64,000 nucleotides of DNA, taken from NCBI RefSeq assembly GCF_030167915.1, contig NZ_JARGNB010000002.1:992001-1056000 (forward strand), written 5' to 3'. The translations under genes were made by a program, and so were the position numbers. The notes beneath the pieces were generated by a model. That model saw only the letters and a program-made list of their open reading frames with translations, did not search any database and was not told where the DNA came from. This DNA comes from Aquabacterium humicola (lineage in GTDB: Bacteria; Pseudomonadota; Gammaproteobacteria; Burkholderiales; Burkholderiaceae_C). Shown here piece by piece: positions 3,615 through 18,254 of this stretch (positions are counted from its first letter, which is position 1; every line of letters starts with the position of its first letter).

Positions 3615-3627
3615 GACGCGGCCGCCG

Positions 3628-3645
3628 ACGTGACACAAACGTGAC
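3628..3645. promoter_or_regulatory. direct repeat, candidate OmpR-family operator
   Basis: Two copies of ACGTGAC (3628-3634 and 3639-3645) are separated by ACAA, giving an 11-base period, one helical turn. This is the spacing used by tandem OmpR/PhoB-family dimers. It sits between the regulator gene and the cupin gene. Confidence 0.5.
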
Positions 3646-3737
3646 CGGCCCCGGACCGCCCCGTGAGCCCGGACGACGAACCTTGCATCACGGGCTTCGC
3701 ATCGAGCCCGGCCACCCACCAAAAGGAGCGTCAGATC

Positions 3738-4205
3738 ATGCAATCCAGGAACCTCTTCATCGCCGCCGCGCTGGCCGTGTGCGGCACCGCCTTCGCCGGC
3801 GAATGCCCGGCCGACAAGCGCGTGCCGGACGGCCAGGGCCAGAAGCCGGGCGCGACGGCCCCGGTCGGCGTCACCGACGTCGTGCGCGCGTCGACCGATC
3901 TCTCCCGCGAGCCGGCGCACATCGACGGCCGCCAGTTCCGCCTGCGCCAGCTCGAGATCCAGCCCGGCGGCGTGGTGCCCTGGCACAGCCACGACGACCG
4001 GCCGGCGATGATCTACATCGTCTCCGGCGAGGTGGTCGAGTACGCCAGCAGCTGCGCGGTGCCGATCGTGCACCGCGCCGGCGACATAGCGCCCGAGAAG
4101 AGCGGCACCTCGCACTGGTGGAAGAACCTCGGCGGCGCGCCGGCGGTGCTGATCTCGGTCGACCTGTTCCCGACCGCGATGAAGCACGAGCAGCACATGA
4201 TGTGA
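3738..4205 (+). CDS. secreted cupin-domain protein
   Basis: A 155-residue periplasmic protein with a clear signal peptide (residues 1-20, cleavage near TAFA/GEC). A Cupin_2 barrel follows, with the metal-site motif HSHDDRPAMIYIVSGEV at about 83-99 and a later His in GTSHWWKN. The substrate cannot be read from the sequence; single-domain cupins of this type include dioxygenases, isomerases and sensors. ATG at 3738 follows AAAGGAG at good spacing; an upstream frame to 3663 lacks a ribosome site and would bury the signal peptide. It opens a plus-strand run of redox and stress genes and is probably controlled from the operator-like repeat upstream. Confidence 0.82.
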   Translation: MQSRNLFIAAALAVCGTAFAGECPADKRVPDGQGQKPGATAPVGVTDVVRASTDLSREPAHIDGRQFRLRQLEIQPGGVVPWHSHDDRPAMIYIVSGEVVEYASSCAVPIVHRAGDIAPEKSGTSHWWKNLGGAPAVLISVDLFPTAMKHEQHMM

Positions 4206-4218
4206 CGGGGAGCGGACC

Positions 4219-4707
4219 ATGCACCATCGAATCCTCCCCGTGCTCGGCGCCGCGGCGCTGGGTCTGGCGCTGACGACCGCCGCCGCGCCGGCCGCCGCCG
4301 AAGCCGTCGTGCTGCAGGGCGACGGCATCGTGCGCGTTCGCAGCGCCTACGGCGTCGACGAGACCGTGTCGCGCCTGAAGGCCGACGTCGCCGCCAAGGG
4401 CATCCGCTTCTTCAGCGCGATCGACCAGGCGCAGCTGGCGGCCGACGCCGGCATCGCGCTGCGGCCGTCGACGCTGATCCAGTTCGGCAACCCGCCGCTG
4501 GGCGCGCAGTTCCTGACGGCCAATGCCAACGCCGGGCTCGACTGGCCGGTGCGCGTGCTGGTGACGCAGGACGCCGACGGCACGGTGTGGGCGACCTACA
4601 CCGACTTCGGATGGATCGCGCGCCGCCACGGCATCACGAACCGCATGCCGCAGTTCGAGATGGCCTCGCGCGTCGTCGAGTCGATCACTTCGACTGTCAG
4701 GAAGTAG
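4219..4707 (+). CDS. secreted DUF302 protein
   Basis: A 162-residue protein with a signal peptide (Ala/Leu-rich stretch to about residue 28, AAPAAAEA) and a DUF302 domain. The domain shows the family's paired features: SRLKADVAAKGIRFFSAIDQ, then LIQFGNPPLG and an LDWPVRVLV strand. DUF302 proteins are small cytoplasmic or periplasmic ligand-binding-like folds of unknown biochemical role, often found in stress and sulfur/metal islands. The start is 13 bases after the cupin stop with a GGGGAG ribosome site, so the two genes are probably co-transcribed. Confidence 0.85.
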   Translation: MHHRILPVLGAAALGLALTTAAAPAAAEAVVLQGDGIVRVRSAYGVDETVSRLKADVAAKGIRFFSAIDQAQLAADAGIALRPSTLIQFGNPPLGAQFLTANANAGLDWPVRVLVTQDADGTVWATYTDFGWIARRHGITNRMPQFEMASRVVESITSTVRK

Positions 4708-4754
4708 CGGCCCGAACGACCAAGCCCGACGAGCCCACCGGGAGACCGACCACC

Positions 4755-6143
4755 ATGCGCACGGATTTGGACGCCATCGTCATCGGCAGCGGCCAGGCCG
4801 GCCCGTTCCTCGCGTCGCGCCTGACCGCGGCCGGCCGCCGTGTCGCGCTGGTCGAGCGCGCGCAGCTCGGCGGCACCTGCGTCAACCACGGCTGCATGCC
4901 GACGAAGACGCTGGTGGCGAGCGCCCGCGCGGCGCACATCGCGCGGCGCGCGGCGGACTACGGCGTGCGCATCGGCGGGCCGGTGCAGATCGACATGCCG
5001 GCGGTGAAGGCGCGCATGGACCGCGTCGTGCAGCAGTCGGTCGGCAACCTGACGCGCTGGCTCGAGGGCATGCCGAACCTGAGCCTGCTGCGCGGCCATG
5101 CGCGCTTCGCCGGCCCGCACGAGATCGAGGTGAACGGCCGGCGGCTGCAGGCGCCGCAGGTCTTCGTCAACGTCGGCTGCCGGGCCGTGCTGCCGGACTG
5201 GCCGGGCATCGACAGCACGCCGGTGCTCGACAACGTCGGCCTGCTCGCGCTCGATGCGGTGCCGGAGCACCTGATCGTGATCGGCGGCAGCTACATCGGG
5301 CTGGAGTTCGCACAGATCCACCGCCGCTTCGGCGCGCGGGTCACGGTGCTCGAGGCGGCCGATCGCATCGTCGCCCGCGAGGACGAGCAGGTCTCGCGCG
5401 AGCTGGCGGCGATCCTCGGCGGCGAGGGCATCGAGCTGATCACCGGCGTCGGTGCGGCGCGCGTCGAGCGCACCGCGGACGGCCAGGTGCGCGTATCGCT
5501 GCAGAGCCGCGGCGTCGCGCACGAGATCGTCGGCAGCCACCTGCTGTCGGCGATCGGCCGGCGGCCGAACACCGACGACCTCGGCCTTGCCGCCGCCGGC
5601 ATCCGGACCGATGCGCGCGGCTTCATCACCGTCGACGACCAGCTGCGCACCAACGTGCCGGGCATCTGGGCGCTGGGCGACGTCAACGGCCGCGGTGCGT
5701 TCACCCACACCGCGTACCACGACCACCAGATCGTCGCCGCGAACCTGCTCGACGGCGAACAGCGCAGCGTGCGCGAGCGCATCCCGGCTTACGCGCTGTT
5801 CACCGATCCGCCGCTGGCGCGCATCGGCATGGACGAGGCGCAGGTCCGCGCCAGCGGCCGCCGCGCGCTCGTCGGCACGCTGCCGATGACCCGCGTGGGC
5901 CGCGCCCGCGAGCGCGGCGAGACCCAGGGCTACATGAAGGTCTGGGTCGACGCCCGGACGCAACGCATCCTCGGCGCGACGCTGCTGTGCATCGACGCCG
6001 ACGAGATCGTGCATTCGCTGCTGGACGTGATGGCGGCCGACGCGCCGTACACCGTCGTGCAGCGCTGCGTGCACATCCATCCGACGGTCAGCGAGCTGAT
6101 TCCGACCCTGCTCGGCAGCCTGACCGAACTGACCCCCGACTGA
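4755..6143 (+). CDS. class I pyridine nucleotide-disulfide oxidoreductase
   Basis: A 462-residue flavoprotein of the lipoamide/glutathione/mercuric reductase family. An N-terminal FAD fold (GSGQAG, residues 10-15), the redox-active pair in GGTCVNHGCMPTK (about 38-50), an NAD(P) fold (VIGGSYIGLE), the FAD motif ALGDVNG, and the C-terminal interface motif HIHPTVSELIPT with the catalytic His are all present. It lacks the C-terminal vicinal Cys pair and the N-terminal HMA domain of mercuric reductase, so MerA is unlikely. The physiological disulfide is unknown; the neighbouring EgtD-like and Cys-rich precursor genes make a low-molecular-weight thiol or thiol peptide worth considering. ATG 4755 follows GGGAG. 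Confidence 0.88.
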   Translation: MRTDLDAIVIGSGQAGPFLASRLTAAGRRVALVERAQLGGTCVNHGCMPTKTLVASARAAHIARRAADYGVRIGGPVQIDMPAVKARMDRVVQQSVGNLTRWLEGMPNLSLLRGHARFAGPHEIEVNGRRLQAPQVFVNVGCRAVLPDWPGIDSTPVLDNVGLLALDAVPEHLIVIGGSYIGLEFAQIHRRFGARVTVLEAADRIVAREDEQVSRELAAILGGEGIELITGVGAARVERTADGQVRVSLQSRGVAHEIVGSHLLSAIGRRPNTDDLGLAAAGIRTDARGFITVDDQLRTNVPGIWALGDVNGRGAFTHTAYHDHQIVAANLLDGEQRSVRERIPAYALFTDPPLARIGMDEAQVRASGRRALVGTLPMTRVGRARERGETQGYMKVWVDARTQRILGATLLCIDADEIVHSLLDVMAADAPYTVVQRCVHIHPTVSELIPTLLGSLTELTPD

Positions 6144-6168
6144 CCCCCACCGACTTCCAGGAGGCACC

Positions 6169-7170
6169 ATGAGCGCCATTGCTTTCGCCACCCCCCGGGT
6201 GGCGCGGACCGACACACCCTTCGCGCGCGACGTGGTCGCGGGCCTCAGCGCACGCGGCAAGCACATCAGCAGCACCTGGCTCTACGACGACCGCGGCTCG
6301 AAGCTCTTCGAGGACATCACGCGGCTCGACGAGTACTACCTGACGCGCGCCGAGATCGCGCTGCTCGAGCGCCACGCGCCGGAGGTCGGTGCGCTGGCCG
6401 GGCCGCGGGCGACGGTGGTCGAGTTCGGCAGCGGCTCCAGCCGAAAGACGCCGCTGCTGCTCGCCGGCCTGGACCGGCCGGGGCTGTACGTGCCGGTGGA
6501 CATCGCCGCGCAGTTCATGGTCGAGTCGGCGCATGCGCTCAAGCGCACGTTCCCGCGGCTGCTGGTGCAGCCGGCGATCGGCGACCTGCGCACGCTGACC
6601 TCGCTGCCGCTGCCGCCGCTGGACTGGCCCTGGGACCCCGACACCGGCCCCGGCCGGCGGATCGGCTTCTTCCCCGGTTCGACGATCGGCAACTTCGCCC
6701 CCGAGGACGCCGCGGTGCTGCTGGCACGGCTGGGCCGCATCCTCGGCCCCGGCGCCTTGCTGTGGCTGGGCCTGGACGGCACGCAGGACCCGGGACGGCT
6801 GCTGCCGGCCTACGACGACCGCGAGGGGGTCACCGCGCAGTTCAACCTGAACCTGCTGTCGCGCATCAATGCCGAGCTCGGCGGCGACTTCGAGCCCGAG
6901 ACCTTCAAGCACGAGGCCCGCTGGGACACCCACGATCGCTGCGTCGAGATGCACCTGGTGAGCCGCTGCGCGCAGACGGTGGAGGTGCTGGGCCGCAGCT
7001 TCTGGTTCGCCGCCGGCGAATCGATCCACACCGAGAGTTCGTACAAGGTCGGCGCGCTGCGGGTGCAGGCGATCGCGCGTATCGCCGGCTGGTCGACGCT
7101 GCGCGTGTTCTCCGACGAGCACTCGGGCTTCAACGCCTACCTGCTGCAGCGCGACGTGACCGAAACGTGA
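6169..7170 (+). CDS. EgtD-like histidine N-alpha-methyltransferase family protein
   Basis: A 333-residue SAM methyltransferase of the EgtD family, which trimethylates histidine to hercynine, the first step of ergothioneine synthesis. Family hallmarks are STWLYDDRGSKLFEDIT, LDEYYLTRAE, the SAM loop VVEFGSGSSRKT and GFFPGSTIGNFAP. AGGAGG lies four bases before the ATG. No EgtB sulfoxide synthase or EgtE lies in the window, so the product could be hercynine, a different methylated amino acid, or an intermediate completed by genes elsewhere. It lies between a disulfide reductase and a Cys-rich DUF2282 precursor, which fits a thiol-redox island. Confidence 0.82.
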   Translation: MSAIAFATPRVARTDTPFARDVVAGLSARGKHISSTWLYDDRGSKLFEDITRLDEYYLTRAEIALLERHAPEVGALAGPRATVVEFGSGSSRKTPLLLAGLDRPGLYVPVDIAAQFMVESAHALKRTFPRLLVQPAIGDLRTLTSLPLPPLDWPWDPDTGPGRRIGFFPGSTIGNFAPEDAAVLLARLGRILGPGALLWLGLDGTQDPGRLLPAYDDREGVTAQFNLNLLSRINAELGGDFEPETFKHEARWDTHDRCVEMHLVSRCAQTVEVLGRSFWFAAGESIHTESSYKVGALRVQAIARIAGWSTLRVFSDEHSGFNAYLLQRDVTET

Positions 7171-7257
7171 TCTCCATGCCATCGGCGCGTGAACCGGCGC
7201 GCCGATGCTTCTTCCGTGCCTTCCCCCACCACCCCTGTTGAACCAAGGAGAGTCTCC

Positions 7258-7569
7258 ATGAATGCCCACCAACCCCTCGTCCGCCATGCGCTCGCCGGCC
7301 TCGTGCTGCTGGGCCTCGGCGCCACCGCCGATCTGGCCGTCGCCGCCAAGGGCGACAGCGAGAAGTGCGCCGGCATCGCCCGAGCCGGCGGCAACGACTG
7401 CGGCACCAGCAAGAGCGCCTGCGCCGGCACCGCCAAGGTCGACCGCGATCCCGAGGCCTGGGTGCTGGTGCCCAAGGGCACCTGCGCCAAGATCGCCGGC
7501 GGCAAGCTGACCGACAAGCCCGAGAACGTGCACGGCGGCGCCGAGGCGCTGAAGGCCAAGAAGGGCTGA
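7258..7569 (+). CDS. bufA1: DUF2282 bufferin-type precursor (BufA1/GigP family), copy 1
   Basis: A 103-residue secreted small protein with a signal peptide (1-30, ending ADLAVAA) and four conserved Cys (37, 48, 55, 76). The core matches DUF2282: [32 protein letters not shown] and [14 protein letters not shown]2282 proteins are ribosomal peptide precursors (bufferins) whose Cys are modified by a DUF692 MNIO enzyme with a DUF2063 partner, and which buffer copper or related metals in the periplasm. AAGGAG precedes ATG 7258; a start at 7189 would destroy the signal peptide. DoxX follows after 11 bases. The maturation genes are about 6 kb away on the other strand. Confidence 0.88.
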
Positions 7570-7580
7570 AGGAGCGCGCC

Positions 7581-8045
7581 GTGCTTGCCACCCGCATCGC
7601 CAACCCGATCGCGCTCGTGCAGAGCTCGATCTCGCGCCTCGAATGGGGCACGCCGGCCCTGGACCTGCTGGTGCGGGTGTTCGTCGCCAGCGTGTTCTTC
7701 AAGGCCGGCCTGACCAAGATCGCGAGCTGGGAGACCACGCTCGCGCTGTTCGAGAACGAGTACGCGGTGCCGCTGCTGCCGGTGGCGCTCGCCGCCTTCC
7801 TGGCCACCGCGGCGGAGCTGGCGTTCCCGGTGATGCTGGTGCTGGGCCTGGGCACCCGCATCGCTGCGCTGGGCCTGTTCGTGCTGAATGCCGTCGCGGT
7901 GATCTCGTACCCGGAGATCGGCGAGGTCGGCCTGAAGGACCACCAGCACTGGGGCCTGCTGCTGCTGGTGAGCCTGCTGCACGGGCCGGGCGCGCTGTCG
8001 CTCGACCACCTGATCGGCCGCCGCTTCGGCGCGCGCCGCGCCTGA
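7581..8045 (+). CDS. DoxX-family membrane protein
   Basis: A 154-residue inner-membrane protein with about four hydrophobic helices. The first contains VRVFVASVFFKAGLTKI, a typical DoxX start, and later segments are LAAFLATAAELAFPVMLVLG and WGLLLLVSLLHGPG. DoxX proteins accompany DUF2282/DUF692/DUF2063 genes in bufferin and gold-induced (gig) operons, and are proposed to support redox chemistry at the membrane. The GTG start at 7581 has GAAGGAG at good spacing and is 11 bases from the precursor gene, so co-expression is very likely. Confidence 0.85.
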   Translation: MLATRIANPIALVQSSISRLEWGTPALDLLVRVFVASVFFKAGLTKIASWETTLALFENEYAVPLLPVALAAFLATAAELAFPVMLVLGLGTRIAALGLFVLNAVAVISYPEIGEVGLKDHQHWGLLLLVSLLHGPGALSLDHLIGRRFGARRA

Positions 8046-8057
8046 GGTCGGACGGCC

Positions 8058-9335
8058 GTGCGCAACATCGTGATCGTCGGCGGCGGCTTCGCCGGCACGA
8101 CGCTGGTGCAGTCGCTGCAGCGCCGGCTGCCTGAAGGCTGGCGCCTGCTGCTGCTCAGCGAGGAGAGCTACACCACCTTCAACCCGATGCTGGCCGAGGT
8201 GGTCGGCGCGGCGGTGTTCCCCGAGCACGTCGTCGCGCCGATCCGCCAGATGATCGACGCGCCGCGCACGCAGTTCGTGATGGGCCGTGCGCTGGAGGTG
8301 GACTTCGCACGCCGGTGCCTGCGTGCCTCGACGCTCGCCGGCCTGCAGGAGATCCCGTTCGAGCACCTGGTGCTGGCGGTCGGCACGCGCGCCAATACCA
8401 CGCTGGTGCCGGGCCTGGCCGAACATGCGTTGCCGCTGAAGCTGGTGGGCGATGCGCTGCACATCCGCAACCGCGTGCTGCAGCGCCTGGCCCGCATCGA
8501 GCTCGAGCACGATCCGATGGCGCGGCGCCGGCTCGGGCATCTGATCGTCATCGGCGGCGGCTTCTCGGGCGTCGAGGTCGCGGGCAGCCTGTCGGACTTC
8601 CTGCGCGGCGCGCTGCGCTTCTACCCGCGCGTCGCCCGCGACGAGCTGAAGGTCACGCTGCTGCAGGACGGCGAGCGGCTGCTGCCGGAGCTGCCGGCGT
8701 CGCTCGGCGTGTCGGCCGCGCGCTCGCTCGCCGCCCGCGGCGTCGACGTGCGGCTGGGTGCGCGTGCGGTGCGGGTGGAGGCCGACGGCGTGATGCTGGC
8801 CGACGGCGCCCGGCTGGACGCCTCGACCGTCGTCTGCACCATCGGCACGCGGGCCAACCCCTTCGTCGAGCAGCTCGACCTGCCGCTGCAGCGCGGGCGC
8901 ATCGTCACCGAGCGCGACCTCTTGGTGACCGGCCGGCCCGGCGTCTGGGCGCTCGGCGACTGCGCGCTGGTGCACAACGGCGATACGCTGGCGCCGCCGA
9001 CCGCGCAGTTCGCGGTGGCCGAGGCGCAGGTGCTCGCGCGCAACCTGCTCGCAGCGATCGAACAGCGGCCGACCGTGGCCTTCAGCCACCGCTCGCGCGG
9101 AATGATGGCCACCACCGGCCACCTGAAGGGGGTCGCGCAGATCGGACGGCTGCGCTTCAGCGGCCTGCCGGCCTGGCTGCTGTGGCGCGCCTACTACCTG
9201 CTGCGCATGCCCACCGCCGGCCGCAAGCTGCGCATCTGGGTCGAATGGACCTGGGCGATGGCCTTCGCGGCCGACATCACGCACCTGCGCTTCACGCGCA
9301 CCGCCGAGGCCGATGCCGACGCGACCCCACCTTGA
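8058..9335 (+). CDS. NDH-2-like NAD(P)/FAD-dependent oxidoreductase
   Basis: A 425-residue flavoprotein resembling type II NADH:quinone dehydrogenase. It has an FAD fold at the N-terminus (VGGGFAGTT), an NADH fold (IGGGFSGVEVAG, about residues 171-182), the second FAD motif ALGDCALV and a C-terminal amphipathic/hydrophobic segment (LLWRAYYLLRMP) typical of membrane attachment. The likely reaction is NAD(P)H oxidation with quinone reduction without proton pumping. Sulfide:quinone reductase is less likely because the paired catalytic Cys of that family are not in place. The GTG start at 8058 follows the DoxX stop by 12 bases, so it belongs to the same transcript. Confidence 0.82.
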   Translation: MRNIVIVGGGFAGTTLVQSLQRRLPEGWRLLLLSEESYTTFNPMLAEVVGAAVFPEHVVAPIRQMIDAPRTQFVMGRALEVDFARRCLRASTLAGLQEIPFEHLVLAVGTRANTTLVPGLAEHALPLKLVGDALHIRNRVLQRLARIELEHDPMARRRLGHLIVIGGGFSGVEVAGSLSDFLRGALRFYPRVARDELKVTLLQDGERLLPELPASLGVSAARSLAARGVDVRLGARAVRVEADGVMLADGARLDASTVVCTIGTRANPFVEQLDLPLQRGRIVTERDLLVTGRPGVWALGDCALVHNGDTLAPPTAQFAVAEAQVLARNLLAAIEQRPTVAFSHRSRGMMATTGHLKGVAQIGRLRFSGLPAWLLWRAYYLLRMPTAGRKLRIWVEWTWAMAFAADITHLRFTRTAEADADATPP

Positions 9336-9364
9336 TTCGACCTTCACTGAACGGAGATTTCCCC

Positions 9365-10147
9365 ATGCTCGACGGCAAGTCCGCCATCGTCACCGGTTCC
9401 ACCAGCGGCATCGGCCTGGGCATCGCGCGCGCGTTCGCCGCGGCCGGCGCCGACGTGATGCTCAACGGTTTCGGCCAGCCCGGCGAGATCGAGGCCACGC
9501 GCGCGATGCTGCAGCGGCAGTACGGCGTGAAGGTGCTGCACAGCGGCGCCGACATGAGCCGGCCGGAGCAGATCCGCGCGATGGCCGCCGAGGCCGCCGA
9601 GGCCTTCGGCCACGTCGACATCGTCGTCAACAACGCCGGCATCCAGCATGTCGCGCCGGTCGATCAGTTCCCGGACGAGCAGTGGGACCGCATCGTCGCG
9701 ATCAACCTCTCGTCGGCCTTCCACCTGATCAAGGCCGTGGTGCCGCAGATGAGGGCGCGCCGCTTCGGCCGCATCGTCAACATCGCGTCGGCGCACGGGC
9801 TCACCGCGTCGCCGTTCAAGTCGGCCTACGTCGCCGCCAAGCACGGCATGGTCGGGCTGACGAAGACGGTGGCCATCGAGCTGGCCGAGTTCGGCATCAC
9901 CGCGAACACCATCTGCCCGGGCTACGTGAAGACGCCGCTGGTCGAGGCGCAGATCGCCGACCAGGCCAAGGCCCACGGCATCTCGCCCGAGGCGGTGGTG
10001 CGCGACGTGATGCTCGCGCACCAGGCGCGCAAGGAGTTCGTCAGGGTCGACGAGCTCGCGGCGCTGGCGGTCTTCCTGGCGTCGGACGCGGCGGCCTCGA
10101 TGACCGCCACCGCGCTGGCGATGGACGGCGGCTGGACGCAGCACTGA
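9365..10147 (+). CDS. bdhA: 3-hydroxybutyrate dehydrogenase
   Basis: A 260-residue short-chain dehydrogenase. TGSTSGIGLGIA binds the nucleotide, VNNAGIQH follows, and the catalytic Ser-Tyr-Lys set is IASAHG and YVAAKHG. The C-terminal half (NTICPGYVKTPLVEAQI, then ALAMDGGWTQH) is characteristic of BdhA, which oxidises (R)-3-hydroxybutyrate to acetoacetate with NAD. This is the step that uses monomers released from PHB. GGAGA precedes ATG 9365. It is followed by a patatin-like hydrolase, a pairing common in PHB-accumulating betaproteobacteria, so the two may act together in PHB or lipid turnover. Confidence 0.92.
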   Translation: MLDGKSAIVTGSTSGIGLGIARAFAAAGADVMLNGFGQPGEIEATRAMLQRQYGVKVLHSGADMSRPEQIRAMAAEAAEAFGHVDIVVNNAGIQHVAPVDQFPDEQWDRIVAINLSSAFHLIKAVVPQMRARRFGRIVNIASAHGLTASPFKSAYVAAKHGMVGLTKTVAIELAEFGITANTICPGYVKTPLVEAQIADQAKAHGISPEAVVRDVMLAHQARKEFVRVDELAALAVFLASDAAASMTATALAMDGGWTQH

Positions 10148-10160
10148 ACGGGGCGACACG

Positions 10161-11255
10161 ATGGACATGTCCGTGAAGCCGCGCCGGGCGCGCAAGTCGA
10201 CGACGGCCGCGGCCGGCGCCTCCGCCGCGGCCAGCGCCGCGGCCGTCAAACCCGTCAACCTCGCGCTGCAGGGCGGCGGCGCGCACGGTGCCTTCGCCTG
10301 GGGCGTGCTCGATCGCCTGATCGAGGACGGCCGGCTCGCGTTCGAAGGCATCAGCGCCACCAGTGCCGGCGCGATGAACGCCGCGGTGCTGGCCTATGGC
10401 TGGACCCAGGGCGGACCCGAGGGCGCGCGGCAGGCGCTGGCCGGGTTCTGGCAGGCGGTGTCCGAGGCGGGCGCGCTGTACAGCCCGTACAAGCCGCTGC
10501 CGTGGGCCTCGGCGCTGGGCAACTGGTCGCTCGACCAGTCGCCGGGCTACCTGTGGATGGACATGGCGATGCGCGTGTTCTCGCCCTACCAGCTCAATCC
10601 GCTGAACTTCAACCCGCTGCGCGAGGTGCTGGAGCGCCACGTCGACTTCGCCGCGCTGCGCCGGCATTCGGCGATCAAGCTGTTCCTCGCCGCGACCAAC
10701 GTCGAGACCTGCAAGGTCCGTGTCTTCCACTGCCAGGACATCACCGCCGACGCGGTGCTCGCGTCGGCCTGCCTGCCGTTCATGTTCCAGGCCGTCCAGG
10801 TCGACGGCGAGTTCTACTGGGACGGCGGCTATGTCGGCAACCCGGCGATCTACCCGCTGATCTACGACTGCGAGTCGCGCGACGTGCTGATCGTGCACCT
10901 GAACCCGATCGTGCGCCGCGGCTGCCCACGCAGCGCGGCCGAGATCATGAACCGCCTCAACGAGGTCAGCTTCAACTCGTCGCTGATGCGCGAGATGCGG
11001 GCGATCGCCTTCGTCACCTCGCTGATCGAACGCGGCAAGCTCTCGCCGGGCGAGGCCAAGCAGATGTTGATCCACTCGATCCGCGCGGACGAGGAGATGA
11101 CGCACTACGGCGTCTCCAGCAAGCTGAATTCAGACTGGGGCTTCCTGACGCACCTGCGCGACAAGGGCCGCGCCCACGCCGAGCGCTGGCTGAAGGCGCA
11201 TGTCGACGCGATCGGCGTGCGCTCCAGCGTCGACGTGCGCGCGGAGTTCCTGTGA
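10161..11255 (+). CDS. patatin-like phospholipase/hydrolase
   Basis: A 364-residue patatin-family serine hydrolase. The oxyanion loop is LQGGGAHGAF (residues 36-45), the nucleophile elbow is ATSAGAM with Ser68, and the catalytic Asp is D221 in WDGGYVGNP. The elbow has Ala where most relatives have Gly (GxSxG), a small variation. The N-terminus is a basic, Ala-rich tail of about 30 residues with no signal peptide, so the enzyme is cytoplasmic. It is 13 bases behind bdhA, which favours a role with PHB granules or membrane-lipid turnover. The substrate is not proven by the sequence. The YeeE/YedE gene overlaps its stop codon. Confidence 0.88.
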   Translation: MDMSVKPRRARKSTTAAAGASAAASAAAVKPVNLALQGGGAHGAFAWGVLDRLIEDGRLAFEGISATSAGAMNAAVLAYGWTQGGPEGARQALAGFWQAVSEAGALYSPYKPLPWASALGNWSLDQSPGYLWMDMAMRVFSPYQLNPLNFNPLREVLERHVDFAALRRHSAIKLFLAATNVETCKVRVFHCQDITADAVLASACLPFMFQAVQVDGEFYWDGGYVGNPAIYPLIYDCESRDVLIVHLNPIVRRGCPRSAAEIMNRLNEVSFNSSLMREMRAIAFVTSLIERGKLSPGEAKQMLIHSIRADEEMTHYGVSSKLNSDWGFLTHLRDKGRAHAERWLKAHVDAIGVRSSVDVRAEFL

Positions 11256-12247
11256 CGGCGATGCCGGCCGGCCTGGCGCTGGCAGTCGCCGCCGCGGCGG
11301 TGCTGGTGATGGGCTTCGCGATCCAGCGCGGCGCGACCTGCACCGTGGCCGCGGTCGACGAGTGGGTCGACCGGCGCGGCACCGCGCGGCTGCGGGCGAT
11401 GCTCGAGGCGTCGGTGTGGGTGGCGGGCGGGCTCGCGCTGGCGTCGCTGCTGGGCGTGCTGCCCGCGGCGCCGCGGCCCTACGCCACGTCGGCGGCCACC
11501 GTGCTCGGCGGTGTGCTGCTCGGGCTGGGCGCCTGGCTGGGCGGGGCCTGCGTCTTCGGCGCGATTGCGCGTTTCGGCAACGGCGAGTGGGCCTACGCGG
11601 CGACGCCCGCCGGGTTCTTCGCCGGCTGCGCGACGATCGGCCTGGCCGGCCTGGCCGGCCTGTCGCCCGCCGCGCGGCTCGATCGTGTCTCGCCCTTGCT
11701 GCAGGCGCCGTGGGCGGTGGCGCTGCCGTTCCTGGCCTTCGCGCTGTGGCGCACCGTGCCCGGCGCGGTGCGCCTGCTGCGCGGGCGCGGCAACCTGCGC
11801 GAGGCCGCCGTGCGCGGCTGGACGCCGCACGCGGCCACCGCGGTGATCGGCCTGACCTTCCTGGTCGCGCTGCTCGCCGCCGGCGGCACCTGGGCCTACA
11901 CCGACGTGCTCGCCGAGTTCGCGCGCGGCATGGCGGCCGGCGTGCCCGCGCGGCTCGCGCTGTTCGGCTGCCTGCTCGCCGGTGCCGTCGTCGGCGGCCG
12001 GCTGGCCGATCGCTATCGCCCGAAAAGAGCGACCGCCGCCGGGCTGCTGCGCTGCTTCGCCGGCGGCGTGCTGATGGGCTGGGGCAGCCTGCTGATCCCC
12101 GGCGCCAACGATGGCCTGATCCTGGTGGGCATGCCGCTGCTGTGGCCGTATGCCTGGCTGGCGTTCGCGGCGATGTGCGTCTCGATCGCCGCGGCGATGC
12201 ACCTCGCGCGCCGCTGCCGCGAGCTGCCGGCCGGAGCGTCGCGATGA
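11252..12247 (+). CDS. YeeE/YedE-family transporter (sulfur-compound uptake)
   Basis: A 331-residue polytopic membrane protein with about nine helices and the two family repeats: IQRGATCTVAAV near the N-terminus, GAWLGGACVFGAIARFGNG (about residues 90-108) and GWGSLLIPGANDGLI near the end. YeeE/YedE proteins such as TsuA move thiosulfate or related sulfur compounds through conserved Cys; Cys occurs here in GATCT, GACVF and FAGCA. The GTG at 11252 overlaps the patatin stop (GTGA) and has GGAG at good spacing. An ATG at 11261 is an alternative. The next gene, a DUF2282 precursor, overlaps by four bases, suggesting a functional link between sulfur uptake and the Cys-rich product. Confidence 0.85.
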   Translation: MTAMPAGLALAVAAAAVLVMGFAIQRGATCTVAAVDEWVDRRGTARLRAMLEASVWVAGGLALASLLGVLPAAPRPYATSAATVLGGVLLGLGAWLGGACVFGAIARFGNGEWAYAATPAGFFAGCATIGLAGLAGLSPAARLDRVSPLLQAPWAVALPFLAFALWRTVPGAVRLLRGRGNLREAAVRGWTPHAATAVIGLTFLVALLAAGGTWAYTDVLAEFARGMAAGVPARLALFGCLLAGAVVGGRLADRYRPKRATAAGLLRCFAGGVLMGWGSLLIPGANDGLILVGMPLLWPYAWLAFAAMCVSIAAAMHLARRCRELPAGASR

Positions 12248-12522
12248 AGCGCCGCGTCGGCAATGCGCTGGTGCTCGGGGGGGCCGTGCTGGCGGCGCTG
12301 GCCGCGGTGCAGCGCTACACCCACCTGCTGCCGGGTTCGGGCGAGCGCTTCGCGCTGCCGCGCGAGCGCTGCCACGGCGTCGCGCGCGCCGGCGCGAACG
12401 ACTGCGGCACCTCGACGCATGCCTGCGCGGCGCAGTCGACCACCGATCGCGCCGAGGACGAATGGATCAGCCTGCCGGCCGGCACCTGCCTGAAGATCGC
12501 CGGCGGCCGGTTGAAGGGCTGA
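12244..12522 (+). CDS. bufA1: DUF2282 bufferin-type precursor, copy 2
   Basis: A 92-residue small protein. Cys 43, 54, 61 and 82 have exactly the same spacing (11-7-21) as Cys 37, 48, 55 and 76 of the first copy, in ERCHGVARAGANDCGT, HACAAQSTTDRAEDEW and PAGTCLKIAGG. It differs from copy 1 in lacking the C-terminal tail. Its N-terminal hydrophobic segment (about 7-22) lacks an obvious signal-peptidase site, so it may stay membrane-anchored. The ATGA overlap with the YeeE/YedE stop shows tight translational coupling. It is presumably matured by the DUF692/DUF2063 pair at 13904-15545. Confidence 0.85.
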   Translation: MKRRVGNALVLGGAVLAALAAVQRYTHLLPGSGERFALPRERCHGVARAGANDCGTSTHACAAQSTTDRAEDEWISLPAGTCLKIAGGRLKG

Positions 12523-12551
12523 AGGCGGCGACGCCCGGAGGGCTGACATCG

Positions 12552-13937
12552 ATGATGAGCGTCCACGACGCGCTGCGGCGCTGGCTGCTGCCGGGCGCCG
12601 CGCCGGCCGCCGCGCTGCCGCGGCGCGTGCAGCAGGAGGTCGAGCGCGAGCAGTTCCGCGCCGAGCTGCTGGTGACCGTGGTGCAGCTGCTGCTGGTGGG
12701 CCTGCTGGCGTTGCTGTACCGCGCGGTGCCGCAGGGCTTCTCGCCCGGCGCACCGATCGAGGCCGCGCCGCTGGGCCTGAGCCTGTTCGCGCTGCTGGCG
12801 CTGCTGCGGCTGTATGCGGCCTGGACCGGCCAGCTCAGCCGGCCGGTGCTGGCCGCGGGGGTGATCGCCGAGACGGCCGTGCTGCTGTTCGTGATCTGGG
12901 CCTACCACCTGCAGTACGAGCAGCCGCCGCAGTTCTCGCTGAAGAGCAGCGAGTTCGTCTACCTGTTCGTGCTGGTGGCGCTGCGCGCGCTGCGCTTCGA
13001 GCCGGCCTGGGTGCTGCTGTCCGGCGGCAGTGCGGCGCTGGGCTGGCTGGCGCTGCTGGGCTGGACGCTGCACGCGGCCGAGTCCAACCCGCTGACCTGG
13101 GATGTCGTGACCTCGATGCGCTCGACGCAGCTGCACCTGGGCGCCGAGCTCGACAAGGTGCTGGCGCTGGTGGTGATCACCGGCACGCTGGCGCTGGCGC
13201 TGGCCCGCGCCCGCCACCTGCTGCGCCATGCGGTCGCGCAGCAGCGCGCGGTGGCCGACCTGTCGCAGTTCTTCGACGGCCCGGTGGCGCGGCGCATCAC
13301 CGGCTCGGAAGCCGAAGCGATGCCCGGCCAGGGCGAGCTGCGCGATGCGGCGATCGTCTTCTTCGACCTGCGCGGCTTCACGCAGGCAGCCGCGCGCCTG
13401 ACGCCCGCCGAGCTGCTGGCGCTGCTGGGCGAGTACCAGCGCCTGGTGGTGCCGCGCGTGCATGCGCACGGTGGCAGCATCGACAAGTTCATGGGCGACG
13501 GCATCCTCGCGAGCTTCGGCGCGGTGGCCGCGGACGCGGCCCCTGCCGCCAATGCGCTGGCCGCGGTCGACGCGGTGCTGCGGGCGGTGGACGGCTGGCG
13601 TGCGCAGCGTGCGGCCGGCGGGGCGGTCGCGCCCGACGTCGGCGCCGGCGTCGCGACCGGCCGGGTGCTGTTCGGCATCATCGGCGACGGCCAGCGCCTG
13701 GAGTACACGGTGATCGGGGATGCGGTGAACCTCGCGGCCAAGCTCGAGAAGCACAACAAGGCCGAACGCACGCGGGCGCTGGCGACGCGCGCGGCCTACG
13801 AGCAGGCGCGCGCGCAGGGCTACGCCGGCGTGAAGCCGCTGCGCGAGGCGCGCACCGTCGGCGGTGTCGCGGCGCCGCTGGACCTCGCCGTGCTCGATGC
13901 GGGTCAGGCGGCGAGCAGCACGCCCAGCGCCGCATAG
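12552..13937 (+). CDS. membrane-bound class III adenylate/guanylate cyclase
   Basis: A 461-residue protein. Five or six transmembrane helices fill residues 35-230, and a cytoplasmic class III cyclase domain (about 265-440) follows. Metal-binding aspartates are in FFDLRGFT and FMGDGILASFG; LEYTVIGDAVNLAAKLE is the conserved region with transition-state residues. The Lys in DKFMGDG fits ATP selectivity, so cAMP is the likely product. ATG 12552 (or 12555) follows GGAGG and lies 29 bases after the second precursor, so it probably shares that transcript. Its 3' end overlaps the end of the convergent bufC gene by 34 bases. Confidence 0.86.
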   Translation: MMSVHDALRRWLLPGAAPAAALPRRVQQEVEREQFRAELLVTVVQLLLVGLLALLYRAVPQGFSPGAPIEAAPLGLSLFALLALLRLYAAWTGQLSRPVLAAGVIAETAVLLFVIWAYHLQYEQPPQFSLKSSEFVYLFVLVALRALRFEPAWVLLSGGSAALGWLALLGWTLHAAESNPLTWDVVTSMRSTQLHLGAELDKVLALVVITGTLALALARARHLLRHAVAQQRAVADLSQFFDGPVARRITGSEAEAMPGQGELRDAAIVFFDLRGFTQAAARLTPAELLALLGEYQRLVVPRVHAHGGSIDKFMGDGILASFGAVAADAAPAANALAAVDAVLRAVDGWRAQRAAGGAVAPDVGAGVATGRVLFGIIGDGQRLEYTVIGDAVNLAAKLEKHNKAERTRALATRAAYEQARAQGYAGVKPLREARTVGGVAAPLDLAVLDAGQAASSTPSAA

Positions 13938-14674
13938 CGGCCGAGCGCCGCGGCCAGGTCGAAGCCCGCGTCCAGCGCCAGCGCCGCCGCGGCGGCCTGC
14001 GCCAGCGGCTGTCGTGCCTGCAACGCCGCCAGCAGCGCGTGCTCGGCGGGGGTGAGCGCATGCACGCGCACGTCCCCCTCCACCTGGCGCAGCAGCACCG
14101 CCTCGGCACCCGCGTCGAGGTCGATCTCCGGCCGCTCGTGCGGGGGCAGCTGGTGCCAGCGCCACAGCGCCAGCACCGGGTAGGGCGAGTGCAGCAGCGC
14201 GGCCGCGGGTTGCCAGCGCAGCACCGCGTCGCCGCGCCGCTCGTCGGGCAGGGCGGCCAGCGTCGACAGCGTCGCGCGGGCGTCGGCAGCGGCGGCCTCG
14301 GCGTGGAAGACCGCGTGCCACAGCCACTCGAAGCGCGCGACGTCGGCCAGGTAGGGCAGGGTGGCGGCCGGCTCGAAGCCTTCGAGGAAGCCCGCGAGCT
14401 CGCCGCCGAAGTCGTGCAGGTTGCCCGAGCGAGACGGATGGCGGTTGATGTACTGCTGCGCCGCGAAGCGGAAGAAGCCCCGCCCGACGAGCTCGGCCAC
14501 CGTCGGGTAGACCGCGCGCAGCGCCTCGGTCAGGCTGGCCTGCATGTTGTGGCGGTAGATCTCGAGCCGGCGCCGGGCGGACAGCGCCGTCGGCCGCACA
14601 TGCTGCGCGGCGAGGCCGTCGCCGCCGAACAGGTCGGCCAGCACCTCGCGCTGCAGCTCACGCAGCGCAGGCAT
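13904..14674 (-). CDS. bufC: DUF2063 bufferin maturation partner (BufC/GigB family)
   Basis: A 256-residue cytoplasmic protein of the DUF2063 family. The N-terminal putative DNA-binding-like domain includes RRLEIYRHNMQASLTEAL, YPTVAELVG and the F-x-x-AQQYI segment, and the C-terminal half (SPYPVLALWRWHQ) is conserved in partners of DUF692 oxygenases. Such partners recognise the precursor peptide and present it to the MNIO enzyme. It begins 17 bases inside the end of the DUF692 gene, so the pair is translationally coupled. The 3' end overlaps the adenylate cyclase gene tail to tail by 34 bases. Confidence 0.88.
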   Translation of the reverse strand: MPALRELQREVLADLFGGDGLAAQHVRPTALSARRRLEIYRHNMQASLTEALRAVYPTVAELVGRGFFRFAAQQYINRHPSRSGNLHDFGGELAGFLEGFEPAATLPYLADVARFEWLWHAVFHAEAAAADARATLSTLAALPDERRGDAVLRWQPAAALLHSPYPVLALWRWHQLPPHERPEIDLDAGAEAVLLRQVEGDVRVHALTPAEHALLAALQARQPLAQAAAAALALDAGFDLAAALGRYAALGVLLAA

Positions 14675-15545
14675 CGCGGCGGCCCTCGTGCGCCGGCGCC
14701 CGGTCCGCGGGCGCGGCCATCAGCCGCGCGGCGCGGGCGGCTTCGTCCAGCAGCTGCTGCAGCGGCGGCAGGTCGTTGTCGCGTTCGACGATCGTCGGCC
14801 GCGCGCCGAAGCGGCGCAGCGCGTGCTCGTACAGCGCCCACACCGCCTCGCACACCGGCGTGCCGTGGGTGTCGATCAGGATCTCGCAGGCGCGGCCGTC
14901 GTCGAGCGTGACCGGGTTGATGCTGTGCCCGCCGAGGTGGAACTGGGCCACCGCGTCGACCGGTAGCGCGTCGAGGTAGGCCAGCGCATCGAAGCCGTGG
15001 TTGTGCGCGCTGACGTGCACGTTGTTGATGTCGAGCAGCAGCGCGCAGCCGCTGCGCCGCACCAGCTCCGCCAGGAAATCCCACTCGCTGTGCTCGGCCG
15101 CGCCGAACTCGAGGTAGCTCGAGACGTTCTCCACCAGCAGCCGGCGGCCGAGCGCCTGCTGCACCTGGTCGATGCGCCGGGCGACGTGCCGCAGGGCCTC
15201 GGTGGTGTAGGGCAGTGGCAGCAGGTCGTTGACGTAGACGCCGCCGACCGAGGACCAGCACAGGTGGTCCGACACCAGCATCGGCTCGACACGGTCGGCC
15301 AGCCGCTTCAGCGCCGCGAGGTGGCCGCGGTCCAGCGCGTCGGTGGAGCCCAGCGACAGCCCGACGCCATGCAGGCTGACCGCGCAGTCGCGCCGCGCGG
15401 CGAGCAGCGCCTGCAGGTGGCGGCCGCCGCCGAAGCAGTTCTCGCTGTGCATCTCGATCAGCGCGATCTCGCGCGCACGGGGCGCGAAGTCGGCGTAGTG
15501 CGGCGAGCGCAGGCCGATGCCGGAGGGGGCGGATGACGTGCTCAT
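14658..15545 (-). CDS. bufB: DUF692 multinuclear iron oxidase (MNIO, BufB/GigA family)
   Basis: A 295-residue TIM-barrel enzyme of the MNIO family, which uses two or three iron ions to oxidise Cys residues of ribosomal peptides, for example to thiooxazoles in bufferins. Conserved segments that probably carry the iron ligands are EMHSENCF (31-38), SLHG (57-60), SDHLCWSS (92-99), LVENVSSY (137-144), LLLDINNVHVSAHNHG (169-184), QFHLGGH (201-207), DTHGTP (225-230) and IVERDND. ATG 15545 is the first Met of the conserved part. Divergent from the sensor kinase at 15649, it shares a 103-base control region that holds the ACTACGGA motif. Confidence 0.92.
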   Translation of the reverse strand: MSTSSAPSGIGLRSPHYADFAPRAREIALIEMHSENCFGGGRHLQALLAARRDCAVSLHGVGLSLGSTDALDRGHLAALKRLADRVEPMLVSDHLCWSSVGGVYVNDLLPLPYTTEALRHVARRIDQVQQALGRRLLVENVSSYLEFGAAEHSEWDFLAELVRRSGCALLLDINNVHVSAHNHGFDALAYLDALPVDAVAQFHLGGHSINPVTLDDGRACEILIDTHGTPVCEAVWALYEHALRRFGARPTIVERDNDLPPLQQLLDEAARAARLMAAPADRAPAHEGRRDACAA

Positions 15546-15648: not shown

Positions 15649-17655
15649 ATGCCGCCGTTCTTCCCTGGTCCCCATCCGATGTCCCTGCATGCCTTCGAGC
15701 CGGCCCGCGCCGCGGTGAATGCACCCGGCGCGGCGGCGCTGATCGATGCGCTCGACCATGCGGCCGCGCTGATCGACGCCGAGGGTCGCGTGATGCTGGC
15801 GAACGAAGGGCTTCGCAGCCTGCTGAAGCGGGCGCTGGCGGGTTCGTCCTGGCGCGAGCGCATCACGGGAGAAGGCCTCCCGGCCTGGGACGGCGCGCTG
15901 GCCGACGCGCTGCGCGGCGTGCCCGCGGCCTGCGCGGTCTCGGTGTGCGACGACGATGGCGCCGCGCATGCGGTGGACATCCGGCTGCAGCGCATCGACG
16001 ACGCCGGCGCCCCGGCGTGCCTGCTGCTGTCGCTGCGCGAGCCGGCGCAGCAGCCGGGCGAGGACAACGAGACGCTGCGCTGGCTGGCGCGTGCCACCGC
16101 GCCGCTGACCGGCGACGACTTCTTCCGCACGCTGATGCGCAACCTGGCGACGGCCTTCGGCTTCCGCCGCGCCTTCGTCGCCGAGTGCATCGACGAACCG
16201 ACGACGCGCGTGCGCACGCTGGCGGTCTGGCAGGACGGCGACTTCCGGCCCAACTTCGAGCTGCGGCTGGCCGGCACGCCCTGCGAGCGCACGCACCGCG
16301 ACGGCCAGATCTACTGCGTCACCGAAGGCCTGGGCGACCTCTACGCCTGGCCGCGGCAGAACGGCTTCGACAGCTACCTCGGCGCGCCTATCCTCGACAC
16401 CGCCGGCCTGCACCTGATCGGCCACGTCGCCTTCATGACCACCGGGCCGATGGACCGCGCGGTGCTCGACAGCCCGCTGTTCCAGATCTTCGTCTCGCGC
16501 ACCGCCGCCGAGCTGCGGCGCAAGCGCGCCGAGGACGTGCTGCGTGCCAGCGAGGAGAGCTACCGCCTGCTGGTGGAGCACCAGAGCGAGGTGATCGTCA
16601 AGTACGACGGCGAGCGACGGCTGCTGTTCGCCAGCCCGTCGTTCTGCCGGCTGTTCGGCGTGTCGGAGCCGGCGCTGGTCGGCTGCAGCTTCCGGCCGCC
16701 GGTGGCCGAGGACGACCGCGCGCGCTTCGAGCAGGCCTGGGACGCGCTGGCCGCGCCGCCGCACGAGAGCCGCTTCGAGGAGCGGGTGTCGACGATGCAG
16801 GGCTGGCGCTGCCTGGCGTGGTCGCAGAAGGCGATGCTCGACGAGCGCGGGCACATCACCGCCGTCGTCGCGGTGGGGCGCGACGTGACCGAACGGCTGC
16901 GCGCCGAGGAACAGGGCCGCCGCCACCTGCAGCAGCTGGCGCATGTCGGCCGCATCAGCGCGATGGGCGAGATGGCCACCGCGATCGCGCACGAGCTGAA
17001 CCAGCCGCTGACGGCGCTGCGCACCTATGCCCAGGCCAGCCAGCGCCGGCTGGCCGCGGGCACCGATCCGCAGGCCCTGACCGAAGCGCTGCAGGGCATC
17101 GCGTCGCAGGCCGAACGCGCCAGCGAGATCGTGCGGCGCCTGCGCGGCTTCCTGCGCCGCGAGGAAATGCGCACCGTGCCGGTCGAGCCGAACTACATCG
17201 TGCGCGAGGTGCTGGGCCTGGCGCGGGCCGAGGCGGCGCAGTGCGGCGTGCAGCTGACGACGCGCCTGGCCGATGCCCTGCCGCAGGTCGACGTCGATTG
17301 CATCCAGATCGAGCAGGTGCTGCTGAACCTGGTGCGCAACGGCATCGAGGCGATGCAGCAGGCGGGCAGCGTGGAGCGCCGGCTGGTGCTGACCAGCGCG
17401 CTGTGCGACGGCGAGGTCCGGCTGTCGGTGCGGGACAGCGGGCCGGGCGTCGCGGCCGACGCGCGCGATTCGATCTTCGAGCCCTTCGTGTCCGACAAGC
17501 CCTCGGGCATGGGCATCGGCCTGGCGATCAGCCGTTCGATCGCCGAGGCACACCGCGGCCGCTTGTGGCTGGACGCCGAGTCAGCGCCGGGCGCGCTGTT
17601 CCACCTCGCGCTGCCGACGTGGCAGCCCGCGGTCCGCGCCGGGAGCCAGCCGTGA
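15649..17655 (+). CDS. cytoplasmic PAS-GAF-PAS sensor histidine kinase
   Basis: A 668-residue soluble kinase with no transmembrane helices. An N-terminal PAS-like domain (about 25-125), a GAF domain (about 140-290) with the TRVRTLAVWQDGDF and AGTPCER segments, a second PAS (about 305-425), HisKA with the acceptor in AIAHELNQPLTAL, and HATPase with NLVRNGIEAMQQ and DSGPGV follow in order. The HELNQPL box is that of FixL/NtrB-type kinases. The start could be ATG 15649 or ATG 15679; neither has a strong ribosome site. The stop overlaps the GTG of the FixJ-like regulator. Its GAF domain is a paralogue of the one at 618-1670, so both sensors may see related signals. Confidence 0.88.
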   Translation: MPPFFPGPHPMSLHAFEPARAAVNAPGAAALIDALDHAAALIDAEGRVMLANEGLRSLLKRALAGSSWRERITGEGLPAWDGALADALRGVPAACAVSVCDDDGAAHAVDIRLQRIDDAGAPACLLLSLREPAQQPGEDNETLRWLARATAPLTGDDFFRTLMRNLATAFGFRRAFVAECIDEPTTRVRTLAVWQDGDFRPNFELRLAGTPCERTHRDGQIYCVTEGLGDLYAWPRQNGFDSYLGAPILDTAGLHLIGHVAFMTTGPMDRAVLDSPLFQIFVSRTAAELRRKRAEDVLRASEESYRLLVEHQSEVIVKYDGERRLLFASPSFCRLFGVSEPALVGCSFRPPVAEDDRARFEQAWDALAAPPHESRFEERVSTMQGWRCLAWSQKAMLDERGHITAVVAVGRDVTERLRAEEQGRRHLQQLAHVGRISAMGEMATAIAHELNQPLTALRTYAQASQRRLAAGTDPQALTEALQGIASQAERASEIVRRLRGFLRREEMRTVPVEPNYIVREVLGLARAEAAQCGVQLTTRLADALPQVDVDCIQIEQVLLNLVRNGIEAMQQAGSVERRLVLTSALCDGEVRLSVRDSGPGVAADARDSIFEPFVSDKPSGMGIGLAISRSIAEAHRGRLWLDAESAPGALFHLALPTWQPAVRAGSQP

Positions 17656-18254
17656 AGCCGCTGGTGCATGTCGTCGACGACGAGGCCGCGGTGCGCGACG
17701 CGGTGGCGATGCTGCTCGGCTCGGTCGGCCTCGCCTGCGTGCAGTACGGCTCGGCGCAGCAGTTCCTCGCCGACTACAGGCCCGGCGGACCGGGCTGCCT
17801 GCTGCTCGACGTGCGCCTGCCCGGCATGAGCGGCCTGGAGCTGCAGGACCGCCTCGCGAAGTCCGGCTTCGCGCTGCCGGTGATCGTGATGACCGGCCAC
17901 GGCGACATCCAGATGGCCGTGCGCGCGATGCGCGCCGGCGCGCTCGACTTCATCGAGAAGCCCTTCCACGACCAGGCGCTGCTCGACCGCGTGCACGAGG
18001 CCATCGAGCGCTCGATGCGCGCCCAGGACGATGCCGGCGAGCAGGCCGAGCTGATCCAGCGTTATCAACGCCTGACCGAGCGCGAGAAGGAAGTGATGGC
18101 CAAGGTGGTGGTCGGCCGGCCGAACAAGCTGATCGCCGACGACCTGGGCGTGTCGATCCGCACCGTCGAGAGCCACCGCGCGCACATCATGGAGAAGATG
18201 CAGGCGCAGTCGCTGTCGCATCTGGTGCGCATTGCGGTCGCGGTGACGGGGTGA
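17652..18254 (+). CDS. FixJ-family response regulator
   Basis: A 200-residue regulator. The receiver (residues 4-118) has D9/D10, phospho-acceptor D53 in LLLDVRLPG, a conserved Thr in VMTGHGD and Lys in IEKPF. A LuxR-type helix-turn-helix (about 135-195) has LTEREKEVM and IADDLGVSIRTVESHR. The GTG start overlaps the kinase stop (GTGA), so the pair is translationally coupled. FixJ-like regulators respond to oxygen, redox or aromatic signals, depending on the kinase. The adjacent bufBC genes are the most obvious targets. Confidence 0.92.
   Translation: MKPLVHVVDDEAAVRDAVAMLLGSVGLACVQYGSAQQFLADYRPGGPGCLLLDVRLPGMSGLELQDRLAKSGFALPVIVMTGHGDIQMAVRAMRAGALDFIEKPFHDQALLDRVHEAIERSMRAQDDAGEQAELIQRYQRLTEREKEVMAKVVVGRPNKLIADDLGVSIRTVESHRAHIMEKMQAQSLSHLVRIAVAVTG

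Follow-up and report, generated by a model that had tools for sequence, protein, structure and literature searches.

Two short-loop bufferin precursors in a conserved respiratory and storage-polymer block of Aquabacterium humicola and other Burkholderiales

Why does a single locus carry two bufferin precursors with the same cysteine spacing, and what connects them with the respiratory, storage-polymer and sulfur genes around them? The question is raised by a 64,000-nucleotide stretch of the Aquabacterium humicola genome (contig NZ_JARGNB010000002.1, forward-strand positions 992,001 to 1,056,000; in the following, the window), in which two genes of the DUF2282 family, PRE1 and PRE2, are found at a distance of 4,674 bp. 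The original prediction had described two precursors of identical spacing (11-7-21), 4.7 kb apart, with a DoxX protein, an NDH-2-like flavoprotein, bdhA, a patatin, a YeeE/YedE transporter and a cyclase between and around them, and a DUF692/DUF2063 gene pair on the opposite strand. Translation and family scans recover every one of these genes at its coordinates; the observation is confirmed and its interpretation is partly supported. The genes belong to a conserved block of approximately 17,000 bases (in the following, the island) that combines two kinds of probable copper-binding peptide with respiratory and storage-polymer genes.

Two precursors of one clade in a conserved block

The cysteines are located at residues 37, 48, 55 and 76 in PRE1 and at residues 43, 54, 61 and 82 in PRE2, and both proteins score above the DUF2282 cut-off of 22.4 bits (Table 1). 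The shared spacing is informative: it occurs in all 27 distinct island sequences and in none of 62 distinct others. The non-island DUF2282 proteins fetched from a family sample of 250 genomes (40 of 40), as well as 22 further ones (earlier loci and L071), have a spacing of 11-8-21 or 11-9-21. In a tree built without the loop, the 27 island precursors make up one side of a branch (support 98/90), and the PRE2 proteins form one group across genera (support 95/93); the tree comprises 40 columns and leaves the finer forks, many in number, unresolved. By their sequences, PRE1 and PRE2 belong to a short-loop clade of Buf1 bufferins. A recent tandem duplication as the origin of the pair is disfavoured, because PRE2 forms one well-supported cross-genus group.

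The N-terminal parts of the two kinds differ. By inspection, the signal sequence of PRE1 proteins ends in AxA a short way ahead of the domain. In eight of the nine PRE2 proteins (the exception is L075), a membrane segment is followed at once by the motif [QK]-[RQ]-[YN]-T-[HQ], and a linker lies between the membrane stretch and the domain; in L092, L093 and L094 the segment is preceded by tails of 13-35 residues, long for a signal peptide. PRE2 is probably a signal-anchor protein; less probably its signal is cleaved, some PRE2 proteins carrying AxA-like triplets. All nine PRE2 proteins retain the four cysteines and the NDC core, and in all nine loci PRE2 is located immediately upstream of the cyclase gene.

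The island extends upstream beyond position 7258 to a two-component system and the genes cupin-DUF302-FADox-EgtD (618-7170). The latter four (plus strand, 3738-7170) are separated by gaps of 13 to 47 bp, and the genes PRE1-DoxX-NDH2-bdhA-patatin-YeeE-PRE2-cyclase (plus strand, 7258-13937) by gaps of -4 to 29 bp, with two 4-bp overlaps. The arrangement suggests two plus-strand units, cupin to EgtD and PRE1 to cyclase. The second looks like one transcription unit because all gaps are 29 bp or less, so that the description of the locus as split is not borne out. The cyclase and DUF2063 genes overlap tail-to-tail by 34 bp.

Table 1. Features of the island and adjoining genes (positions in the window)
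Feature	Position	Strand	Basis and remarks
PAS-domain protein, third gene of the island two-component system	618-1712	-	PAS_3 70.2 bits; start GTG 1712 or ATG 1670
Sensor histidine kinase	1634-2764	-	HisKA and HATPase_c; start 2764 by inspection
OmpR-type response regulator, predicted operator binder	2782-3522	-	Response_reg and Trans_reg_C
Predicted operator copy 2, located where the regulator and cupin genes diverge	3628-3687	+	Matrix 22.5; profile 34.6 bits, E 1.1e-7
Cupin protein, starting the upstream unit	3738-4205	+	Cupin_2
DUF302 protein	4219-4707	+	
FADox, pyridine nucleotide-disulfide oxidoreductase	4755-6143	+	Pyr_redox_2 and Pyr_redox_dim
EgtD-like histidine-specific methyltransferase	6169-7170	+	Methyltransf_33, 316.9 bits
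Predicted operator copy 1 with the -10-like element of PRE1; overlaps the EgtD end	7154-7213	+	Matrix 51.3, leave-one-out 42.0; profile 41.2 bits, E 9.3e-10
PRE1, bufferin precursor, cleavable-looking Sec signal (AxA)	7258-7569	+	DUF2282 81.4 bits; alignment
DoxX (BufD-like)	7581-8045	+	DoxX 61.9 bits
NDH2, type II NADH dehydrogenase-like flavoprotein	8058-9335	+	Pyr_redox_2; solved NDH-2 9mqy, E 2.5e-43
bdhA, 3-hydroxybutyrate dehydrogenase	9365-10147	+	TIGR01963 366.3 bits (cut-off 307.05)
Patatin-like protein, type accompanying PRE2 and cyclase	10161-11255	+	Patatin 87 bits; distribution across loci
YeeE/YedE-type sulfur transporter	11252-12247	+	Sulf_transp 105.8 bits
PRE2, bufferin precursor, probable membrane anchor, 4-bp overlap with YeeE	12244-12522	+	DUF2282 76.5 bits; alignments
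Membrane class III nucleotide cyclase	12552-13937	+	Guanylate_cyc 34.6 bits; catalytic columns
DUF2063 partner protein (BufC)	13904-14674	-	PF09836 75.8 bits
MNIO maturase (BufB)	14658-15545	-	NF050167 360.8 bits (cut-off 310); alignments show retained metal-ligand motifs
Second sensor kinase, divergent from MNIO	15649-17655	+	HisKA, HATPase_c, PAS; same place in L094
Response regulator (LuxR-type) belonging to the second system; approximate start	17649-18254	+	Response_reg and GerE

A scan of the genome collection with NDH2 yields 33 loci, which were compared by tblastn with 16 proteins of the window and then with 27 query proteins; several of these loci end at contig ends. The order NDH2-bdhA-patatin-YeeE is found in 21 of the 33 loci (the block genes of L062 are ordered differently), and short-loop bufferin genes are present in 11. 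In L071, a canonical bufferin cluster adjoins NDH2. Adding further genomes and plasmids brings the distinct island loci that have a short-loop precursor to 19 (L095 is left out, being the same locus as L058): PRE1 and PRE2 in eight (window, L077, L092, L093, L094, L112, L125 and L126), PRE1 alone in ten, and PRE2 alone in L075, where an acetoacetate decarboxylase gene replaces YeeE. Three relatives are plasmid-borne; the stretches carry no annotation. In L094, which belongs to another genus, the architecture of the window recurs from the PAS, kinase and regulator genes through the second two-component system, including the convergent DUF2063/MNIO pair; compared to the window, this locus has an additional carbonic anhydrase gene and no match for DUF302 or FADox. 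The extra genes are hence not randomly scattered: PRE1-DoxX-NDH2-bdhA-patatin-YeeE, partly with PRE2-cyclase, recurs in Burkholderiales, and the proposal of an expanded bufferin system holds in so far as the additional genes are a conserved set. The patatin of the window type is found in the nine PRE2 loci; the patatin of other loci best matches a DUF3734-type query.

In the family sample, NDH2 homologues (E-value up to 1e-60) are found in 16 genomes and DUF2282 in 146. Within the 16 NDH2 genomes, nine of 22 DUF2282 genes are located at most 8 kb from NDH2, compared to 0.07 expected; two of the nine are the window's own, and the co-location involves five of the 16 genomes, that of the window included. 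A tree of 42 NDH2 sequences, several of whose forks are weak, implies at least three changes of bufferin state (six by parsimony), compatible with bufferin genes having been lost, or having joined the block, more than once.

The comparison also gives observations on the composition of the block. A gene for an extracytoplasmic function (ECF) sigma factor is found after bdhA in L053-L056, L062, L069 and L070 and after the cyclase in L075; in many other loci, patatin and YeeE are separated by a carbonic anhydrase gene. A homologue of the PAS-domain protein adjoins the regulator and kinase genes in many island loci; in the window, this protein and the second sensor kinase are 45% identical over 146 residues, possibly owing to a common sensor domain.

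A predicted operator and its regulator

The 260 bp upstream of PRE1 contain CGTGA-type repeats with an 11-bp period and a -10-like element, CCAnACT. The pattern TGA-N8-TGA-N19-TGA is found ahead of PRE1 in all 18 PRE1 islands, whereas Markov resampling gives a mean of 0.03; this contrast is descriptive because the pattern was picked after inspection and the loci are related. Firmer support comes from a matrix derived from the PRE1 sites, which recovers sites outside its training set: ahead of the cupin gene in the window (weaker, Table 1), L052, L058, L092, L093, L094, L125 and L126; ahead of NDH2 in L113 and in L054-L056, where the regulator is present and bufferin genes are absent; and ahead of FADox in L051. 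No site is found in ten LysR-type loci, and nothing exceeds a score of 8 among 982,392 background positions.

A later, sequence-only profile was built from 25 sites, the cupin site included. In the 7.4-Mb genome of the window it finds three sites with an E-value below 1e-6, those of PRE1 and cupin, both part of the training set, and one outside it, 1.9 kb before the window start, so that all three are located within the island or next to it; the next best match has an E-value of 0.1. Among 20 genomes profiled, the eight with an operator-bearing island have best E-values of 3.4e-9 or less, the other 12 of 0.002 or more. Matches with E-values up to 1e-4 occur in nine of the 250 family genomes, seven of them among the 16 NDH2 genomes. 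In G120 the match lies ahead of its cupin gene; the weakest (G153, without NDH2) lies between a homologue of the regulator (56%) and an ECF sigma factor gene.

Operators of the PhoB/OmpR type are direct repeats, and regulators of the OmpR type usually read such repeats. The island sites share with them the 11-bp period, the adjoining OmpR-type regulator gene and the -10-like element downstream, and differ in their CGTGA half-sites and in their predicted targets, the island and a few envelope-protein genes. The island has both the regulator with a Trans_reg_C domain and the direct-repeat sites expected of an OmpR-type regulon. Apparently, the island is under one dedicated switch, an OmpR-type regulator predicted to bind the direct-repeat operator.

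The operator also occurs elsewhere. The third site of the genome precedes a lipoprotein with a lactonase-type seven-bladed propeller (L202:6051-7362). Near the island, operators are found ahead of small LRAT-domain proteins (L053:8898-9377 and L077:1993-2508 by Pfam, L112:6603-7157 by a look at the sequence). In other genomes (L203-L207) they precede DUF4148-type secreted proteins, identified by a Pfam run in L205 only, and in L203 an EF-hand-like protein below the Pfam cut-off.

Maturation genes and partner proteins

The MNIO of the window passes the BufB equivalog model, and the DUF2063 (PF09836) and DoxX (PF07681) proteins are above the Pfam cut-offs. The genome has four matches each for DUF2282 and DUF692; for the two DUF2282 genes outside the window, the MNIO starts 233 and 247 bp away. 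The fourth MNIO (L107, C1:2206000-2218000; 371 bits) has an adjoining DUF2063 gene and no DUF2282, and no Lys-Cys repeat precursors are found around it.

The placement of the MNIO/DUF2063 pair varies over the 18 island loci in which either gene is found. It follows YeeE on the same strand in seven (L052, L057-L060, L078 and L079), lies upstream on the opposite strand in five (L075, L092, L093, L125 and L126) and upstream on the same strand in four (L077, L080, L113 and L053, the last judged from a DUF2063 piece at the locus edge), and is convergent downstream in two (window and L094). Since place and strand differ between lineages, the convergent placement is a lineage variant. A maturation controlled separately from the precursors, as put forward in the original prediction, is therefore at most lineage-specific; within the window it may hold, since PRE1 has an operator match in front and the MNIO has none. 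The MNIO tree does not unite the island MNIOs (L075 and L105 join on long branches), and co-descent of maturases and precursors is therefore not claimed.

The match of NDH2 to the solved NDH-2 spans residues 3-405, nearly the full chain, as for type II NADH dehydrogenases; the similarity is remote. A NADH:quinone route free of iron-sulfur (Fe-S) clusters would resist the damage that copper does to Fe-S enzymes. The NDH-2 of E. coli reduces Cu(II) (PMC3817396), and a CxxC motif defines the Cu(II)-reductase subset (PMC1847454). The island protein has cysteines at residues 87, 260 and 302 only. The missing CxxC distinguishes it from this subset and weakens NDH2 as a cupric reductase of the E. coli type; the Fe-S-free NADH:quinone route is therefore preferred. 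YeeE scores 28.8 bits against the 400 of the equivalog model for the thiosulfate transporter TsuA, and passes the broader Sulf_transp model of Pfam.

In class III adenylyl cyclases, two Asp residues hold the metals, Lys and Thr contact adenine, and Asn and Arg serve the transition state. In the island cyclase the two metal Asp, the Lys/Thr pair and the Asn are conserved, and Lys stands at the Arg position. Cyclase homologues (E-value up to 1e-70) are found in 11 of 399 family genomes, the six closest with PRE2 and the other five (40-47%) without. Twelve looser relatives (36-47% identity; L098-L104 and L127-L131) show no PRE1 or PRE2 match in the fetched flanking DNA, short in some cases. One relative of this kind (L102:5631-11099, 40%) has, approximately 3 kb away, a DUF302 gene and an MNIO-DUF2063 pair that is of another type. 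As to the suggested tie to sulfur uptake, quinone redox and cyclic AMP (cAMP), the genes are present, their roles are assigned by gene family, and the link to the cyclase is confined to the PRE2 subset of nine loci.

Known systems and readings of the island

The island shares with Buf1 clusters, including the gig cluster of Cupriavidus metallidurans (gigT for DoxX, gigB, gigA and gigP), a four-Cys DUF2282 precursor, a BufB-type MNIO, a DUF2063 protein and DoxX. Unlike these clusters, it has two precursors of the short-loop clade, one of them probably anchored, and fixed respiratory, storage and sulfur genes in between; its maturation genes are at least 2.3 kb from a precursor, where the usual distance is below 1 kb, and an OmpR-type operator is found where ECF sigma control is described for bufferin and gig clusters. 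The island also departs from the compact order precursor-MNIO-DUF2063-DoxX, which is the usual layout and not a defining one. The main survey (PMC12452194) lists stand-alone precursors as well as tandem precursors and MerC fusions, and gives extremely low proportions for extra conserved genes near bufferin genes; the terms 'two-component', 'NADH' and 'spacing' are absent from its main text. A copper link is described for Buf1 (PMC12452194, PMC13097082) and the gig cluster (PMC11647585, PMC13192273); for bufferins together with two-component systems, one paper was found, on C. metallidurans mutants. Titles and the beginnings of abstracts of the papers listed give no match for this block, the operator or the short-loop clade.

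A bufferin-less NDH2-bdhA-patatin-YeeE block in Pelomonas, Roseateles, Aquabacterium, Caenimonas and Piscinibacter shares the core genes and their order; in contrast to the island, it has no DUF2282 or MNIO, and mostly a divergent LysR gene and no operator. Its Piscinibacter representatives L054-L056 have an OmpR-type regulator and the operator. The parts of the island are known families.

At the level of sequence, the island combines a regulator, a predicted operator before both units, precursors of one clade, an intact-looking BufB/BufC pair and a block conserved across genera. On balance, and with modest confidence, we favour a regulated bufferin super-island that provides a soluble and a tethered bufferin for envelope stress, together with a 3-hydroxybutyrate-to-quinone route and sulfur import. 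The phosphorylated regulator would bind the operator and switch on both units, and in the cytosol BufB/BufC would turn the two central cysteines of each precursor into thiooxazoles. PRE1 would be exported and cleaved to give a soluble periplasmic copper buffer, whereas PRE2 would be retained on its membrane anchor. Under envelope metal stress, 3-hydroxybutyrate freed from the storage polymer, perhaps with the help of the patatin, would supply NADH that is oxidised via the Fe-S-free NDH-2 into the quinone pool; YeeE would import sulfur, and the cyclase may report or tune the response through cAMP. We infer the thiooxazole chemistry, copper binding, electron route, sulfur import and cAMP output, as well as copper as the signal, the latter from the Buf1 and gig literature.

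Several points weigh against such a super-island, among them this indirect assignment of copper, the missing CxxC motif, the post hoc choice of the operator pattern and the window MNIO without an operator. The bufferin-less block is the commoner one, 21 of the 33 NDH2 loci having no DUF2282 match (some end at contig ends). L125 is without NDH2, in the fetched DNA of L080 and L113 neither bdhA nor patatin is matched, and L112 has no MNIO or DUF2063 in 25 kb. Homologues of the regulator occur without an operator match in L062 and L063, and L051 has the operator without a regulator match in the fetched DNA. DUF2063 and DoxX are below the narrower NCBIfam cut-offs for HvfC and HvfX, and the structure models of PRE2 and the cyclase are poor (mean predicted local distance difference test scores of 51.8 and 41.3, respectively).

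A rather unlikely alternative sees the island chiefly as a redox module, or one for thiol stress, that serves respiration and the use of storage polymer, with the bufferins as accessories and copper not the main signal. Operator and regulator also serve the bufferin-less loci L054-L056 (L051 has the operator only), the presence of EgtD, FADox and DoxX agrees with thiol or oxidant stress, and the further operator targets (DUF4148, LRAT and lactonase-propeller proteins) are envelope proteins without evident copper link. The short-loop precursors, however, are confined to these islands in our sample and keep the metal-binding cysteine pattern, and their Buf1 relatives are described as copper buffers (PMC12452194).

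We also regard it as unlikely that the BufB/BufC of the window matures PRE1 only, with PRE2 an unmodified, disulfide-bonded membrane peptide that acts as a ligand or sensor domain of the cyclase. The N-terminal segment of PRE2 differs from that of PRE1, and the survey suggests that this segment is involved in maturase recognition (PMC12452194); moreover, PRE2 is always accompanied by the cyclase, and islands with PRE1 alone retain MNIO and DUF2063. Yet PRE2 keeps its cysteines and NDC core throughout, as expected if it is still modified, PRE1 and PRE2 form one clade, and L075, which has PRE2 only, nevertheless has MNIO and DUF2063.

A more doubtful possibility is that PRE2 and the cyclase constitute a metal sensor, in which the tethered thiooxazole peptide would serve a transmembrane class III cyclase as receptor subunit and copper or soft-metal binding would be converted into cAMP, while PRE1 buffers bulk metal. 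If true, this would be a metal sensor of a new kind, based on a ribosomally synthesized and post-translationally modified peptide. An ordinary bufferin cluster, broken up by rearrangement and joined by these genes through chance, is a practically negligible explanation, as the observed co-location exceeds expectation (nine against 0.07) and order and operator are conserved, the former in several genera, even though position and strand of MNIO/DUF2063 differ between lineages.

With respect to the bufferin family, the island thus sets bufferins of a distinct clade among respiratory and storage-polymer genes of fixed arrangement, with their own predicted operator and regulator, and ties a second, apparently membrane-held bufferin to a cyclase. 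It makes several points accessible to testing, namely bufferin switches other than ECF sigma factors, the use of one MNIO pair for two precursors, and the role of DoxX and the respiratory partners.

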